This document shows, piece by piece, positions 21,515-27,466 of a DNA stretch of 27,759 bases. The translations under genes and the position numbers were made by a program. The DNA lies in IMG/VR virus record IMGVR_UViG_3300017748_000098, positions 1 to 27,759 of that record; one strand, 5' to 3'. Within the stretch, counting starts at the first letter, position 1, and each line of letters begins with the position of its first letter. Origin of the DNA: a virus. The notes under the pieces were generated by a model that ran no database searches, was not told where the DNA came from, and saw nothing but the letters and a program-made list of their open reading frames with translations.

Positions 21515-21964
21515 TTATTTATTTATTTTTGTTATTTTTTCAGCACCACGACTTCCGAAGTATGCTACGTAAACTGTTACTAGTAATGTTTTTAATAAGT
21601 TTATCCAAGACTCATCTACATCAAATTGTAAATGAAAAGAATCTACAGCCATCATAATTACGGCTGATGCGGTTAAGAAAACAAGAGCTAATGGGCGTGT
21701 ATTTTTTGAAAGCCACGAATCACTTTTCATGTCTGCTCTCCACCTACTAGATACTTCTTTCATTTCTTGTATATCAAGCTCTAATAATTTCATAGCTTTT
21801 TCTTTGTCTTCTGGTCCTATAGTATCATCACTTGATATGAGATTTTTTACTAAGCCAAAGCCTCCTTGGTCTGGTAATATATTACCAATACCATCTAAAA
21901 TAGCAGGAGCCTTATCTTTCAAAAAAGCTCCTATTTTAGTATCTTTAAATTTTTTTTTAGCCAC
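21515..21964 (-). CDS. Holin-like protein, 3TM-holin family type (149 aa, GTG start)
   Basis: The first 60 residues are soluble and helical with Lys-rich ends, then MKEVSSRWRADMKSDSWLSK (68-87) leads into a hydrophobic span PLALVFLTASAVIMMAVD (91-108) and a second span INLLKTLLVTVYVAYFG (121-137). The W-R-A-D-M..D-S-W-L-S-x-N-x-R-P-L motif is the signature of the 'holin of 3TMs' family (PF11351) known from phages and gene transfer agents. Only two spans are obvious here. The start is GTG at 21964, since the base triplet on the plus strand is cac, and overlaps the preceding stop by 8 bases. The holin would permeabilise the inner membrane for the amidase encoded 4 kb upstream. Confidence 0.75.
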   Translation of the reverse strand: MAKKKFKDTKIGAFLKDKAPAILDGIGNILPDQGGFGLVKNLISSDDTIGPEDKEKAMKLLELDIQEMKEVSSRWRADMKSDSWLSKNTRPLALVFLTASAVIMMAVDSFHLQFDVDESWINLLKTLLVTVYVAYFGSRGAEKITKINK

Positions 21965-22316
21965 GTTTTATTATATAAATTTCTTGTTTATTATCATTTG
22001 TAAAGGCTTTAACTTTTTTAGAAAAATAATTACAATATGCGTAATCTAATTCTATACCTTCAAAAGCATCAAGCCAGTCATTTGGTATAAGTACAAATAT
22101 TTTTAAATCATCTTTAGTAAACACATAGTTATAAGTGTTTTCTCTTGACTCATATAAAATTGTATGAGGTTTTTTTACATAACCCTCTTGTTTTAAAAAT
22201 AATTCCAGTTTGTTTATATTTTTATAATATTCTTTATAAAATTCTTTACTGTGTATTTCTTGACTAGTTACGTTTATAGATAGTATAGTTGTTATTATTA
22301 AGATTATTTTTTTCAT
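21957..22316 (-). CDS. Small exported protein with signal peptide, 119 aa
   Basis: The N-terminus MKKIILIITTILSINVTSQ is a clear Sec-type signal peptide (KK, hydrophobic core, Ser/Thr near the predicted cleavage). No Cys follows, so it is not a lipoprotein. The mature part is about 100 aa, rich in Tyr, Lys and Asn, and lacks catalytic motifs. I do not recognise the family. It overlaps the holin-like gene by 8 bases and follows a 60-base gap, so it may have its own promoter. A periplasmic or outer-membrane role is likely; possibilities are lysis accessory, receptor masking or superinfection exclusion. Confidence 0.55.
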   Translation of the reverse strand: MKKIILIITTILSINVTSQEIHSKEFYKEYYKNINKLELFLKQEGYVKKPHTILYESRENTYNYVFTKDDLKIFVLIPNDWLDAFEGIELDYAYCNYFSKKVKAFTNDNKQEIYIIKRG

Positions 22317-22376: not shown

Positions 22377-23525
22377 TTAAGCTATTGCTTTATCTCTTAT
22401 ACCTTTTTGTGTGAAATTTTTAACTTTTGAAGTTTTTGGGTTTCCTTTTCCTAGTTTTTTATTAGCTTTTTTGCTAAGTTTTCTCATTTTATCTTCAGAT
22501 ACTAACTTAACGTCTACAACTGATCTTTTATTTTTACCACCTATCTTACCTGCTTTAAACAAAGCTTTATTGTCTTGAGCTCTAGATGCTTCTGTAGTAT
22601 ACTTTTTAGTCTTACTTCCACCAATTGCTCTCTTTTTAGTAACAGTCATATCATAAGGAGTAGTTTGTGTTGTTCTTTTACCATCCTCATAGTCATAAGC
22701 TCTTTTAACTTTTACCTTAGCTTTGCCTCTATTATTTTTTCTAGTTTTTATCGTCTCTTTTTCTGTTCTTTGATATTCGGGTCTACTAATATATTCAGAA
22801 GCTCTTTCGCCTATATCACCACTAAATATATTAGTTCTTTTTACTTCTTTCTTAAAATCACTAACAGATTTACCATCACTACTCCTCCAACCGGTATCTC
22901 TTCCTTGAGAATCCATTTGACCTACAGAAACTTCCATTGCTGGATCTTTCATCATAGTAGTATGGTTTTCAACTTCTAAAGTACCTCTACTTCTTTTCTG
23001 TTTACTCTTGTCTTTAAATTTTGGTTTTTTTGTTTTTTTGCTAAAAGCATCGCACTCGTCACCGCCGCCGGGACCACACATTTCAGCAGAAGCTCCATCT
23101 TGAATACCTATAAGTTTTCTATCTGATAATGCTTTAAATGCTTTGTTGTTTCCTCTATAACCTTTGAGTTCAAATTTATTTCTCATGTCTTTATTTTTAC
23201 CGTTTAATATACCGTTGCTAGCTTTATAAGCTTCTTTTTCCCATGGTAAATCTTCATTGTGTTCGTTTAAATTTTCTCTTGAATAAGTCTTGCCTTTCCA
23301 ATAAAAATTATTTTTATCATAATCTAATTCACCATCACGTTGTTGATGTTGATGAACAGTTTCGTGAGCAACAACAGCTTTTTCCATATTAGCGTCAACA
23401 TCTTTATCAACTATTATACCAGTATGATTAGACTTACCGGCAGAACCATCTTTAAGATCTCTGCGATAGACAGCAATGTTCATATCGTCCTTATTATAAG
23501 GTGCGCCGTTAAGTTTAAAACTCAT
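22377..23525 (-). CDS. HExxH zincin-like protein with basic C-terminal region (382 aa)
   Basis: Residues 50-60 read AVVAHETVHQH, an exact HExxH zinc-binding signature (H54, E55, H58) with hydrophobic residues before it. LPWEKEAYKAS at 93-103 offers E98 as the third ligand, giving a gluzincin-like layout. The N-terminal approximately 110 residues therefore form a plausible small metallopeptidase-like domain. From residue 155 to the end the protein is Lys/Arg/Thr-rich with low complexity and many turns, probably disordered and nucleic-acid binding, apart from a GPGGGDECDAF Cys pair near 151-161. Its substrate is unknown. It heads the basic-protein series that follows the amidase/spanin block. 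Confidence 0.55.
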   Translation of the reverse strand: MSFKLNGAPYNKDDMNIAVYRRDLKDGSAGKSNHTGIIVDKDVDANMEKAVVAHETVHQHQQRDGELDYDKNNFYWKGKTYSRENLNEHNEDLPWEKEAYKASNGILNGKNKDMRNKFELKGYRGNNKAFKALSDRKLIGIQDGASAEMCGPGGGDECDAFSKKTKKPKFKDKSKQKRSRGTLEVENHTTMMKDPAMEVSVGQMDSQGRDTGWRSSDGKSVSDFKKEVKRTNIFSGDIGERASEYISRPEYQRTEKETIKTRKNNRGKAKVKVKRAYDYEDGKRTTQTTPYDMTVTKKRAIGGSKTKKYTTEASRAQDNKALFKAGKIGGKNKRSVVDVKLVSEDKMRKLSKKANKKLGKGNPKTSKVKNFTQKGIRDKAIA

Positions 23526-23527
23526 AT

Positions 23528-24175
23528 TTATTTTTTTCTAAGTCTTTGTTTATTTACCCTACCTTTTTGTATACCGTATTTAGCATTTTTAGGTTTTTTG
23601 TATTTAACCTTAACTTTAGCAGTTTTAGTATTTTTTGTTGGTTTAGTGTTTGTTTTAGGATTTGACTTTGCTATTTTTCTTTGTTCTTTTCTAACTCTTT
23701 TTTTAGTAGTAGTTACTCCTGTAGTTCCTCCTTTTTCGTTTTCATAAGTGTAACTAACATAATCGTTTCTATCTTTAATTTTTTCAATAGCTCTTCCTAA
23801 TCCTTTTTTAGTAGTTGTATTATCACCCATTGCTTCATCTTGAGCAGCTTTTCTTCTTTGAGCCGCGGTAGTAGGTTTTGGATTTTTACTTACAGAAGCA
23901 CCCATAATGGTATCTGCAAATTTACCTTTTATCTTACCGTCAGCCACAGCTTTCTTTAATTTAGGATTAAAACTAGAACCATCTTTTTTAGTTTTACAAC
24001 CAAAGTTGTTAGCGTAGTTAGCCATCTTAACCACAGCTGGAGAATACTTTTTAGTACGAGATCTCATAATCTTACTAGCAGCTTTACAAGTATCCATACC
24101 ACCCATATTCTTTTCTACCCATGCAGTAAACTTACCTTCGTTTTTTTCTTTTATTTCTGGAAATTTCTTAGCCAT
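23528..24175 (-). CDS. Very basic small protein with Cys residues (215 aa)
   Basis: Strongly Lys/Arg-rich protein. Residues 1-90 are the most ordered part: a MAKKFPEIKEKNEGKFTAWV helix, then MGGMDTCKAASKIMRSR, a KYSPAVVKMANYANNFGCK segment and MGASV. The remainder is low complexity with TTKKGLGRAIEKIKDR near 117-132 and repeated KNPK/NTK units to the C-terminus. The GLGRAIEK phrase is also seen in the 49-aa protein encoded just before it (GLGDSIEK). Such composition suggests DNA or RNA binding, for example packaging inside the virion or DNA compaction. No specific family is recognised. It is joined to the 382-aa gene by a 2-base gap. Confidence 0.5.
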   Translation of the reverse strand: MAKKFPEIKEKNEGKFTAWVEKNMGGMDTCKAASKIMRSRTKKYSPAVVKMANYANNFGCKTKKDGSSFNPKLKKAVADGKIKGKFADTIMGASVSKNPKPTTAAQRRKAAQDEAMGDNTTTKKGLGRAIEKIKDRNDYVSYTYENEKGGTTGVTTTKKRVRKEQRKIAKSNPKTNTKPTKNTKTAKVKVKYKKPKNAKYGIQKGRVNKQRLRKK

Positions 24176-24181
24176 TTTGTT

Positions 24182-24331
24182 TTATTTATTCATGTTATAC
24201 GGAAAATTTTTATTGAACCATTGCTTGCGATCATCACAACCGCAGCCACCTGGTATCATATCTGCAACTCTTTTTATACCTGTTGCCTTTGTAAACTTTT
24301 CTATGCTATCGCCTAAACCTCTTGATTTCAT
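24182..24331 (-). CDS. Small Cys-containing protein, 49 aa
   Basis: Short frame that begins with ATG at 24331 and ends with TAA at 24182. It fills nearly the whole space between the 214-aa and 215-aa genes (gaps of 10 and 6 bases). The protein reads as a helix, GLGDSIEKFTKATGIKRVAD (residues 5-24), then a GGCGCDDRK dicysteine turn, then QWFNKNFPY. From memory, near-identical 'SRGLGD.IEK.TKATGIK' small proteins ending in CGC..RK occur in many marine phages, so it is unlikely to be spurious. Function unknown; the CxC motif could bind metal or redox-couple. Confidence 0.65.
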   Translation of the reverse strand: MKSRGLGDSIEKFTKATGIKRVADMIPGGCGCDDRKQWFNKNFPYNMNK

Positions 24332-24341
24332 AATATTTGTA

Positions 24342-24986
24342 TTAACAGTTCCACCTACGTCTTGCTGCTTTACCTCTTTTACTGTTCCAACTCTTTGATC
24401 TAGAGCAAAACGATTTTCTTTTATTCCAAGCTTTACTACCTTTTTTTAATTTTGACGGTGGAGTAGTTACAGCTGTCGTAAGCTTACTATCGGGATTTTT
24501 TCTTTTATACTCATCAACGCCTTTTTGTGTCATACCACCGCCAGCATCAGCACCAGTACCTGTAGGATTAGCTTTATTAAAGTTTTTACCTCTACCAATA
24601 GTTCTTCGAGGTTCTGCAGCACTAGGTCCACTTGCTTTTTCACAACTACCTTTTGCACCTTGAACAGTTCCTGGTACTCTTCTGTAACCTGGCCAACAAG
24701 GTGTTTTTTTCATTGAAGCACCACCACTTCTATTTCTTTTTTTAGAACCACAAGGTTCGCCTGTGGCAACATTGATCCAGTTTTCTTTTTCAAACCAGTC
24801 CCTAAGTGTAGCACCTTTTTTACGAGCGCCTTTAACATTTGAAGAGCTTGATCTTTTGTATTTACCTTGAGAAGCAGCGGAACGCTTGGCATTAACAACT
24901 TTGTTTCTCTCGGCTTGACTCATCGATCTTACCTTACTAGCAGGTAGGCAAACTTTTTTAGTACCTCCACCTTTAACCTTGCTCAT
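24342..24986 (-). CDS. DUF5872-like basic Cys-rich protein, 214 aa
   Basis: Highly basic, with conserved-looking blocks in order: KKVCLPASKVRSMSQAERN (10-28), LRDWFEKENWINVATGEPCG (61-80), TPCWPGYRRVPGTVQGAKG (95-113), and a C-terminal KAWNKRKSFCSRSKSWNSKR leading to ARRRWNC (185-214). The blocks resemble the DUF5872 family and the C-terminal FCxR...RRWNC motif, both widespread in marine phages and large DNA viruses of algae (from memory). The Cys and Trp spacing (C79, C97, C115, C194, C214) could bind zinc. A virion-packaged nucleic-acid-binding protein is the simplest guess. It overlaps the 68-aa gene by one base (TAATG). Confidence 0.65.
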   Translation of the reverse strand: MSKVKGGGTKKVCLPASKVRSMSQAERNKVVNAKRSAASQGKYKRSSSSNVKGARKKGATLRDWFEKENWINVATGEPCGSKKRNRSGGASMKKTPCWPGYRRVPGTVQGAKGSCEKASGPSAAEPRRTIGRGKNFNKANPTGTGADAGGGMTQKGVDEYKRKNPDSKLTTAVTTPPSKLKKGSKAWNKRKSFCSRSKSWNSKRGKAARRRWNC

Positions 24987-25192
24987 TACTTCTTTTTTGA
25001 ATCTTTTATTTGTTTATCAGTTAATGGAACATCAGCATCGGTAGATGGTCGTAACTTTATTGTACCACCATCGCAATAAAACTCTCTTCTTTCTCTAGCA
25101 GCTTCTTCTTTACCACCTTCTTTTTTAGCATAACCAGCCTCCCACTTTTTCCAAGCTTTAGCACATTTATTGTTTTTTCCTCTAGGTCTCAT
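24986..25192 (-). CDS. Small basic protein, 68 aa
   Basis: Short frame, mostly charged: KCAKAWKKWEAGYAKKEGG (9-27), then a helix KEEAARERREFYCDGG with one Cys, a central GTIKLRPSTDADVPLTDKQ strand-loop and a Lys tail. CAKAWKKWEAGY and YCDGG are features I recognise only as part of the same marine basic-protein set. It is coupled to the 214-aa gene by a one-base stop/start overlap and starts 3 bases after the 183-aa gene. No function can be assigned. Confidence 0.55.
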   Translation of the reverse strand: MRPRGKNNKCAKAWKKWEAGYAKKEGGKEEAARERREFYCDGGTIKLRPSTDADVPLTDKQIKDSKKK

Positions 25193-25195
25193 AAT

Positions 25196-25747
25196 TTAGT
25201 ACATCTTTTTAGCTTTAGATATTATTCTATTAGCTTTAGCGTATTTTTTAGATACTTTGTTTCTATTTTTAGCCGTTTGTTTTAAATCTTTTATTTCTTG
25301 TTTTCTAATTTCATTTCCTTTACCTTCAAAAAAAGGATCATTTTTAAAACCTTGCCTAGCTTCTTTACCTCTATATCCTTTAATATTAGATTTAGCTTCT
25401 TCTTTTCTATATTGTCTTTTCTTTCTCTGCACTAATCTTGTATTGGATAATGCGTTAGTTTTATCAGATTGATACCCATGTTCTCTTCCAAAGTCATCTA
25501 TAATATTTCCACCTCCTAGAACATTAGCGCCTTTTCTTATTTTTTTCTTTGCTGCTTTTATATCTGGGTCTTTTAACGAAGCGCCATCTTTACTTTTACC
25601 CATTTTACCAGGTCCACCTGCCTTAGTACATCTTACACCCCAACCAGAAGCATAAGCACTAGGCCAAACTTTAAATTTCTTTTTAGCTGCAGCTTTGCAC
25701 GCTGCTGATATTTTAGTTCTTTTTATATTACCTCTTTTTGTTGCCAT
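25196..25747 (-). CDS. Basic protein with KVWPSAYASG motif, 183 aa
   Basis: The N-terminal 45 residues carry CKAAAKKKFKVWPSAYASGW then GVRC, a motif that recurs in marine phage genes of the DUF5872-like class (from memory). The C-terminal part is low complexity, Lys/Arg/Gly/Asn-rich, with a predicted helix QKARQ-type stretch near 125-180. No signal peptide or membrane span. Its start overlaps the preceding gene's stop by one base (TAATG), so it is translationally coupled to the spanin-like gene. Proposed role: nucleic-acid or virion-associated basic protein; unproven. Confidence 0.6.
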   Translation of the reverse strand: MATKRGNIKRTKISAACKAAAKKKFKVWPSAYASGWGVRCTKAGGPGKMGKSKDGASLKDPDIKAAKKKIRKGANVLGGGNIIDDFGREHGYQSDKTNALSNTRLVQRKKRQYRKEEAKSNIKGYRGKEARQGFKNDPFFEGKGNEIRKQEIKDLKQTAKNRNKVSKKYAKANRIISKAKKMY

Positions 25748-26157
25748 TATCTACGTCCTTTTTTATCTACTTGAATTTCTTTAACTATAACAGTTGTTTT
25801 AGGTTTTTGATTTTTAATTTCTTCTAGTTGTCTATTTAACTCTTCTAGCTTACCATCATTTTCAGTTCCGTCTTTTACTAGCGTACCTATTACTTGTATT
25901 TCTTCAAATACAACATCGTCTACTTGCTCAAGCATTTCTACTCTTTCTTTCAACTGTATGATCATTTTTTCGTTCCACTCTTCTTTTAATTCATACTCTA
26001 AACGAGTAACTTCTATAGGTGGCAGCTCTTTAGCTTCTTCAATATCTGCTTGCAATGTATAATACATACCTACAAAAGATGCTGTTACCATTATTATTGC
26101 TATTACAGTTTTTAGGTCAAGTTGTATATTAGTGTTCTCAGAGATTTTTGTACTCAT
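25747..26157 (-). CDS. Single-TM coiled-coil protein, i-spanin-like candidate (136 aa)
   Basis: The best start is ATG at 26157, giving MSTKISENTN. The upstream in-frame ATG at 26199 lies deeper inside the amidase gene and would place a His-rich tail at the N-terminus. A hydrophobic segment LKTVIAIIMVTASFVGMYYT (15-34) is followed by a charged coiled coil of about 75 residues with regular Leu/Val/Ile spacing and a basic tail. An N-terminal anchor plus periplasmic coiled coil overlapping the amidase gene is the layout of an inner-membrane spanin (Rz-like). No outer-membrane partner lipoprotein is visible. Alternatives are an amidase-associated regulator or a membrane-anchored assembly protein. 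Confidence 0.55.
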   Translation of the reverse strand: MSTKISENTNIQLDLKTVIAIIMVTASFVGMYYTLQADIEEAKELPPIEVTRLEYELKEEWNEKMIIQLKERVEMLEQVDDVVFEEIQVIGTLVKDGTENDGKLEELNRQLEEIKNQKPKTTVIVKEIQVDKKGRR

Positions 26158-26551
26158 TAGTCGCGTTGAATGATGGGCATGCTTTATTAGCAAACTCATT
26201 GTGTGAATATATAATAGCAGTTGGATACATTGCTTTTAATGTTTTAAGCACATGTAACAAACCCTCTTTTTGTTCTTGTGTTCTAGTATCCTTCGGAGTC
26301 TTACCATCTGCCTCAACGCCACCACAATAGCAGATACCTATTGAATTACGATTGTGCCCTTTGCAATGAGCTCCGATTTTGGCTATATCTCTACCTTTTT
26401 GTATTTCACCATTTATATCAATGTAGAAATGATAGCCTATGTCTGACCAACCACGACCTTCTGTATGCCACTTCTTAATTGTGTCCACACTTATATCTTG
26501 ACCTTCTCTAGTGGCTGAACAGTGAATTATAATTTCAGTTATTTGCCTCAT
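26138..26551 (-). CDS. N-acetylmuramoyl-L-alanine amidase, T7-lysozyme type (137 aa)
   Basis: Endolysin that cleaves the amide bond between muramic acid and L-alanine in peptidoglycan. It aligns by eye over its length with T7 lysozyme (Amidase_2 fold): HCSATREG (10-17), GWSDIGYHFYID (34-45), KGHNRNSIGICYCGG (64-78) and SHNEFANKACPSF (116-128). The zinc ligands are H10, H117 and C125, with Y40 and K123 matching the T7 catalytic Tyr46 and Lys128. There is no signal peptide, so it needs a holin to reach the cell wall. It ends 20 bases inside the spanin-like gene. T7 lysozyme also binds T7 RNA polymerase, and no such polymerase gene is in this window. Confidence 0.92.
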   Translation of the reverse strand: MRQITEIIIHCSATREGQDISVDTIKKWHTEGRGWSDIGYHFYIDINGEIQKGRDIAKIGAHCKGHNRNSIGICYCGGVEADGKTPKDTRTQEQKEGLLHVLKTLKAMYPTAIIYSHNEFANKACPSFNATNEYKNL

Positions 26552-26554
26552 GAC

Positions 26555-27466
26555 TTAATTTTTGTTTTTGAAGTTTTTAGCTGGCTTTAGCTTTTCCATT
26601 TTTTTGCTATAGGCCATTTTACCAGCATTAGCAATACCTTCAGCAGCACCTTCAGCAATCATACTTTGAGATAAGTTTTTAAAATATGAAGGAAATTTTG
26701 TTTGATTTGAAAAAACCTTAGTACCATCACGTTTCATTGTTTTAGCTTTTGGAGGATCTATATGCATGGAACCACCAAACTCTACAGCTTTATCTCCACT
26801 TTTCTCATCTTGAGCTTTATCATCAAATGATTGAGATCTTTTAGCGTCTTTAACTAATTCTTTTCTAGCTTTACCTCTAATACCTTTTTTATCAGCATAA
26901 GCTTTAGCTTTAGCTTTAGCCACTTGTTTAGGTTTAGCTGCCATCATAGCTCCCATATCCATATTCATTATAGCTGAGTTAGCTGCGTTAACTGCGTCAT
27001 CATTTGAACCCTCTGGAATGCTTCCTGGTGTAGTAGTCATTGGGTCAGCAGGTGGCATACCTGCAGTTTGCTGACTTGCCATTTTGGTAAAATCTGACTG
27101 AGGATTATTACCTGGGTTATTACTTTGTACTGCTTTTAAAACTTCGCTTAACTTTTGACTATTTTCTTTAAGTTTTTCATTAGCACCTCTTCCAAACTGC
27201 AACATTTTTCTTTGACCACTCATTACGCTACTTATATCATTTTGAGTGCTTTCTTCAAAGTTGGGTCTAGCATCGCCAGTACCATTAGAAAATACTTGAC
27301 CAAGCTTCTCTTGGACTTTAGCACCTACTTTTTCTTTTAGCTTGTTTAAGAAACTTGGGCCATCATTCATGTCTTTAATATGTTTCTCTATAGTCTTAGC
27401 TTGTTTCCCATGAGCAACTACAGCACCTTTAAGTTGTGTTACTACCTTTTTTAAGTCTTTTGCCAT
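26555..27466 (-). CDS. Ala/Lys-rich helical protein, 303 aa
   Basis: The protein is hydrophilic and helical. Residues 1-55 form a Lys-rich coiled coil (VVTQLKGAVVAHGKQAKTIE at about 8-27), a second helical region covers 90-115, and a Pro/Met/Thr-rich linker with PPADPMTTTPGSIPEG spans about 137-153. After that come NMDMGAMMAAKPK and an AKAKAKAYADKKGIRGKARK basic block. The C-terminal 60 residues are again helical with a Lys/Asn tail. No membrane segment or enzyme motif is evident, and I do not recognise the family. It may be a packaged virion protein. It lies 3 bases before the amidase gene. Confidence 0.5.
   Translation of the reverse strand: MAKDLKKVVTQLKGAVVAHGKQAKTIEKHIKDMNDGPSFLNKLKEKVGAKVQEKLGQVFSNGTGDARPNFEESTQNDISSVMSGQRKMLQFGRGANEKLKENSQKLSEVLKAVQSNNPGNNPQSDFTKMASQQTAGMPPADPMTTTPGSIPEGSNDDAVNAANSAIMNMDMGAMMAAKPKQVAKAKAKAYADKKGIRGKARKELVKDAKRSQSFDDKAQDEKSGDKAVEFGGSMHIDPPKAKTMKRDGTKVFSNQTKFPSYFKNLSQSMIAEGAAEGIANAGKMAYSKKMEKLKPAKNFKNKN

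Follow-up and report, generated by a model that had tools for sequence, protein, structure and literature searches.

What is encoded by a run of small, strongly basic, cysteine-containing proteins among the late genes of a marine phage? The question is raised by the window, i.e. the whole 27,759-base virus record analysed here, in which five such genes lie side by side. An earlier note on this DNA proposed a packaged nucleoprotein or histone-like system, an ejected set acting on the host, or a set of zinc-binding modules. In this study, the gene block was dissected into its component modules, their distribution and genomic context in other phages were analysed, and their relatives were traced to proteins of published virion proteomes.

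The basic gene block and its modules

The head genes of the window are arranged on the minus strand in the order terminase, portal, capsid-type and tail-type proteins (PHROGs). The cluster of five coupled genes described in the earlier note was confirmed, with products of 183, 68, 214, 49 and 215 aa (P1 to P5), all encoded on the minus strand. Spacing between the genes ranges from −1 to 10 bases, so that they abut or overlap, with TAATG overlaps at the junction of a 150-aa gene with P1 and at that of P2 with P3. The noted richness in Lys and Arg also holds (20–29% Lys + Arg, pI 9.6–11.1), with pI values of 10.5 for P1, 9.8 for P2, 11.1 for P3, 9.6 for P4 and 10.4 for P5. P6, directly downstream of P5, has a pI of 9.8 as well, and the remaining late genes in the window are mostly acidic or neutral. 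Seven of the 28 window genes have a pI of at least 9.6 and six of these are consecutive; under random placement of seven such genes, a run of at least six is expected with p of about 4e-4. Every motif quoted in the earlier note is present in P1–P5, and the set is wider than five genes, since P6 and the N-terminus of a 303-aa gene also match recurrent modules.

P1 (25196..25747, minus strand, as are all genes and modules of this paragraph) consists of module A at residues ~12–50 (KISxxCKxAAKxKFxVWPSAYASGWGVRCTxAGGP, 25598..25714) and a basic tail. P2 (24986..25192) carries two cysteines (KC...YC) and has relatives at 13 loci. P3 (24342..24986) is a fusion of modules B, C and D. Module B (KVCLPASKVRSMS...GATLRDWFEKENWINVATGEPCG, 24747..24980) recurs at 75–91% identity in many phage contigs, usually as a separate protein of ~90 aa. 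Module C (PCWPGYRRV...GSCEK, 24636..24701) is known from relatives and was placed by inspection at P3 residues 96–117; the window holds a degenerate form of CWxGYxKxGxKxKGGKMVxNC. Module D (GMTxKGVxEYKRxNPGSKLxTAVT...KSFCARSxxWxxxRGxAARRRWxC, 24345..24539) forms the C-terminus of P3. P4 (24182..24331) is module E (GLGDSIEKFTKATGIK...GCGCDDRKxWxNxxFPY). P5 (23528..24175) comprises module F (PEIKEKNxGKFTAWVxKNxxGxxTCxAAS...KYSxxVVKMANYANNFGCKxK, 23984..24160), with three predicted helices, and then a basic tail, mostly disordered. P6 (382 aa, 22377..23525) has an N-terminal HExxH (metallopeptidase-like) domain of ~100 aa, termed G, and a basic tail, and often adjoins modules E and F. The 303-aa protein (pI 9.8, 26555..27466) begins with module H, which in other phages is a separate protein of ~41 aa adjoining module A. 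The flanking genes encode an endolysin (amidase, 26138..26551), a spanin-like protein with an N-terminal membrane segment and a coiled-coil-like region by inspection (25747..26199), and a holin (21515..21964).

Two side observations concern these genes. Relatives of the HExxH domain at the start of P6 (VVAHETVHQHQQ) weakly match metallopeptidase families, and in crAss-like cr50_1 a HELGH peptidase adjoins module F. Next to the holin, positions 21957–22316 encode a 119-aa protein that appears to have a signal peptide and is without family match.

Distribution, order and fusion of the modules

Virus contigs were searched with P3, module A and module F, which gave 196, at least 541 and at least 261 confirmed stretches, respectively; 80 loci were kept from each search. 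In the kept loci, the parts of P1–P5 are mostly separate small proteins of 45–100 aa (about 51 aa for A and for E, about 91 for B, about 88 for D and about 66 for F). Judged by their sequences, P1–P5 are proteins assembled from exchangeable mini-modules. Common orders are A-B, A-B=D-E-F-G, A-H-B and F-E-G. Among the 80 F loci, E is present in 76 and domain G in 54. Tandem rows of six or seven such proteins occur in some contigs, and up to eight different ones are found in one island. Stand-alone forms have a median pI of 9.8–11.3 and a net charge of +6 to +23. For module A, 54 distinct DNA sequences correspond to nine protein sequences, and codon differences amount to 39% at third positions versus 6% at first and second positions; therefore, module A is under strong purifying selection. 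The association with marine phages made in the earlier note was borne out, as the modules recur across marine phages. The host of the marine phage carrying the block is probably a Bacteroidota bacterium. Modules E, A, B and G are encoded on a contig binned to a Saprospiraceae genome (L090, 5794–7009), which fits Bacteroidota hosts, although this may be a virus contig placed in the bin.

The modules are also fused to enzymes. In L244, a cytidylyltransferase is joined to B-type, A and D modules, and in L249 (232–3960), on a 328-kb virus contig, a protein of 1,242 aa unites A and B-type modules with GNAT and deaminase domains and is possibly a packaged effector. Between A and B lie other families of small, basic and mostly two-cysteine proteins (L043, 7047–7839; L028, 7182–7968), with zero matches in Pfam, PHROGs and NCBIfam. 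The two halves of module B (CLPxxK..SM..AER and LxxWF...PCG) appear in reversed order in cyanophage proteins when the window (24747–24980) is compared with L088 (3200–4093) and L085 (4460–5845), a possible circular permutation.

Direct searches returned little. The whole of P1 found nothing in phages by tblastn, and module A alone gave weak cyanophage matches. Module B alone found no relative over its full length in 50,697 phage records; in bacterial genome bins, it was matched by two contigs only.

Protein families and structure models

No function was returned for P1–P5 by Pfam, PHROGs or NCBIfam, and histone or HU-like profiles of these collections gave no match. The FCxR...RRWNC element belongs to Pfam DUF6321 (PF19846), which matches the P3 C-terminus at 31.6 bits against a gathering score of 28.5; P3 additionally fuses this domain to modules B and C. 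The LRDWFEKENW element had been called DUF5872-like and has no match to that family; the label belongs to module A, with its KVWPSAYASG motif. P1 itself has no match to DUF5872 (PF19197) above the gathering score, and the stand-alone module A of L043 reaches 17.5 against the cutoff of 27.5, whereas a cysteine-free sister form of A (L211) is a clear member at 48.2 bits. Of the 116 profile positions, P1 has only the first ~40, and it carries an extra cysteine pair. On these profile scores, P1 and module A are related to DUF5872 and are not members by the cutoff. The suggested link to algal DNA viruses stands via DUF5872 only, a family that has sister forms of A among its matches and turns up in a single paper, on a phycodnavirus genome.

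The AlphaFold models have a mean pLDDT of 65 for P3 and 60 for P5, where the helices of F alone are confident. Neither model matched a solved structure, and a viral structure library returned relatives of F only. Studies of these proteins were not found, and DUF6321 was never named, in the literature covered, which excluded most subscription journals.

Pairing of cysteines

An even number of cysteines was counted in 309/310 distinct stand-alone A, B, D, E and F proteins, which are related sequences and hence not independent. Stand-alone A has zero or two cysteines in 88 of 89 distinct proteins, and the odd one is probably a form cut by a contig end. Two cysteines are present in all 60 stand-alone B and all 75 stand-alone E proteins; D has two, four or six (n = 24), and F has two or none (n = 62). 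The pair of module A occurs as C5 + C28, as C5 with a cysteine at the extreme C-terminus, as C2 + C29, or not at all. Module F retains both cysteines in 67 distinct sequences and neither in two, and among the listed sequences of the P2 family both are present in nine and neither in four. These shifts in register and joint losses are separate events and favour cysteines that act as a pair, most simply as a disulfide. The pattern favours disulfide-type pairing over four-ligand zinc sites, as far as sequence can tell. For module D, it is not obvious from the predicted helices that its two cysteines would come close to each other.

In 25 loci (e.g. L043, 6435–6845; L069, 8853–9221), a small thioredoxin-like protein with an apparent signal peptide accompanies the modules. 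This exported neighbour was considered as a disulfide catalyst and rejected, because the sequences shown are without a CxxC site.

Position among lysis genes

A spanin-like gene and a holin bracket all 139 modules in the 31 loci that have both flanks (31/31). Lysis genes (two endolysin types) or a holin lie near 64/80 and 50/80 of the loci with mostly stand-alone modules, and near long fusion forms in 2/34. Module D is close to an M15 endolysin in pelagiphage HTVC028P. The island thus shares its lysis-cluster position with spanins and with disruptins, which are cationic phage peptides that disrupt the outer membrane. This position may reflect late expression only.

Module relatives in phage virions

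Virion evidence comes from module-bearing relatives in phages that are not close to that of the window. Synechococcus phage S-CREM2 has exactly two ORFs with matches to the module profiles: ORF160, with B-type, C and A, and ORF137, with D. Both are in the mass spectrometry list of CsCl-purified virions, with seven and four unique peptides, respectively (PMC10665884, Table 3). In S-SZBM1, scanned up to the last 7.8 kb of its genome, SSZBM1_139 (module C) and SSZBM1_192 (module D) were matched; Table 1 of PMC9146016 has the former among the proteins detected in virions and does not list the latter. Three of the four module-bearing proteins in the two cyanophage proteomes are therefore virion-detected, and at least three detections against backgrounds of 52/221 and 30/218 have p of about 0.02 in this small sample. 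Cytidylyltransferases are present among the virion proteins of both cyanophages. In Cellulophaga phage phi13:1, a module-E protein is encoded among structural genes proven by mass spectrometry, yet was not itself detected. The T4-like cyanophage proteins (S-CREM2 ORF160 and ORF137, S-SZBM1_139, P-SSM4_156 and P-SSM4_160) likewise carry A, B-type, C and D modules, but the modules are contained in proteins of 297–490 aa, the genes lie among head or replication genes, and the sub-parts of B are in reverse order.

Module F leads to Crassvirales cargo protein 1, gp45 of crAss001. This protein is virion cargo by mass spectrometry and was partly placed in head and tail by cryo-EM (PMC10172136). In a profile search of all PDB sequences, gp45 was the sole match of the smaller profile, A2, which holds a crAss-like sequence (gp45 residues 377–419, E 0.09), and was missed by the larger profile, A6; thus, the link relies on intermediates. 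With the cr50_1 form, tblastn found module F in 73 phage records, including crAss001 relatives, there within the gp45 gene. A protein at or near the gp45 gene position contains F in DAC15, 'Rudgehvirus jaberico', cr108_1 and cr127_1. The position of F within these proteins varies, being N-terminal in cr127_1 and occupied by two copies in DAC15_59, so that F is a mobile or duplicated insert in gp45-position proteins of three Crassvirales families. In a set of seven sequences, an F profile matched four of six gp45-type proteins with E of 8e-23 to 2e-8 and was weak for crAss001 itself. In cr50_1, F is encoded by a gene of its own, located between those for the portal and the capsid.

The likeness of gp45 to P5 lies in module F, at gp45 residues ~377–421. 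Crassvirales F often lacks the cysteine pair of the marine form, and gp45 is an 842-aa protein with a membrane segment and a portal-bound domain, whereas P5 is a basic 215-aa protein of the lysis region. The match is limited to P5 residues ~6–64, without a full-length relation. By sequence comparison, P5 has a single module in common with gp45 and is not its orthologue. Since F is one part of a large protein in crAss001, F alone need not be packaged. The packaged or ejected set suggested in the earlier note gains partial and indirect support from relatives, with A–D in cyanophage virion proteins and F in a Crassvirales cargo protein, and would extend to the proteins of the window by analogy.

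Interpretation

The reading that we prefer, to which we give about an even chance, is that genes of the P1–P6 type encode small basic proteins of cysteine-paired mini-domains that are made late, associate with DNA, are packed into the particle as internal cargo and are ejected with the genome. Under this reading, the proteins would be made late in infection, and each module would adopt a very small helical fold that a disulfide or a similar cysteine pair holds together. The positive charge suggests that a module, or an enzyme fused to it, may be held on the packaged DNA; the proteins would then be packed into the particle as internal cargo and would leave with the genome at infection. The reading is based on the module relatives in S-CREM2 and S-SZBM1 virions and F in gp45, the cr50_1 F gene between portal and capsid genes, the fusion of modules to enzymes (cytidylyltransferase; GNAT/deaminase), and the high pI and charge, the paired cysteines and the purifying selection on A. 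The T4 internal proteins (IPI–III, Alt) are alike in idea, as small basic or enzymatic proteins that are packed with DNA and ejected, but no sequence relation to them was found. Several findings count against internal cargo. SSZBM1_192 and the phi13:1 module-E protein were undetected in virions, and the stand-alone genes lie among lysis genes, unlike the cyanophage and crAss cases. The T4-type N-terminal capsid-targeting sequence, where the prohead protease cuts, is also absent from the N-termini of P1–P5 by inspection.

The main rival is a function in lysis, in which the stand-alone proteins would be cationic, cysteine-paired peptides that, alongside the endolysin, holin and spanin-like protein, attack the outer membrane or peptidoglycan when infection ends. 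Its main support is the placement of all modules between the spanin-like gene and the holin in 31 loci, to which the endolysin or holin genes near most stand-alone-module loci, the disruptin precedent and the exported thioredoxin-fold protein in 25 loci can be added. We nevertheless consider a lysis function unlikely: P1–P5 are without a signal peptide, long fusions are rarely near lysis genes, and the up to eight different small proteins of one island are more than any lysis cassette is known to have. In cyanophages and Crassvirales cargo protein 1, moreover, the modules are far from lysis genes and are virion components. Effectors carried in the particle that, once ejected, act on host DNA, RNA or the ribosome by binding, in the service of host takeover instead of packaging or condensing, would be the same as internal cargo up to the ejection step. 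The high charge, the strong conservation of A and B across phages and the enzyme fusions (e.g. with GNAT and deaminase domains) would suit such effectors, but modules A–F have no catalytic motif, and this alternative is rated as rather unlikely.

Cytoplasmic late proteins outside the virion (chaperones, assembly or nucleic-acid regulators), occasionally fused to virion proteins, would explain why one module-D and one module-E protein were not found in virions. However, the virion detection of three of four module-bearing cyanophage proteins and the occurrence of F in a proven cargo protein make this improbable. A set of zinc-binding modules, as suggested in the earlier note, is highly improbable. 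Cysteines occur in every module and module E has CGC, but there are two cysteines per module, without a conserved extra ligand set; the pairs are lost together and shifted in register, and no zinc-finger profile matched the modules. The zinc-finger reading was accordingly rejected on cysteine count and pairing, and two-cysteine zinc sites split between two chains are possible.

A broader version of the cargo reading, which we consider quite unlikely, is that the modules are a general, exchangeable cargo-retention kit of tailed phages. Disulfide-stapled cationic tags would keep a fused protein on the DNA until the reducing host cytoplasm frees it, with free microproteins in flavobacterial-type marine phages, enzyme fusions in cyanophages and a cysteine-free copy in the gut Crassvirales cargo protein.

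Public virus contigs hold hundreds of stretches that code for relatives of these modules, whose families are without known function. Their occurrence in three unrelated groups of phages, in proven virion and cargo proteins, turns these orphan microproteins into a testable virion-cargo hypothesis, and the strict cysteine pairing makes a redox role testable. The results suggest that phages may share a route for loading proteins into heads besides the T4 capsid-targeting sequence, and the modules probably represent packaged helper proteins of a kind not studied before.
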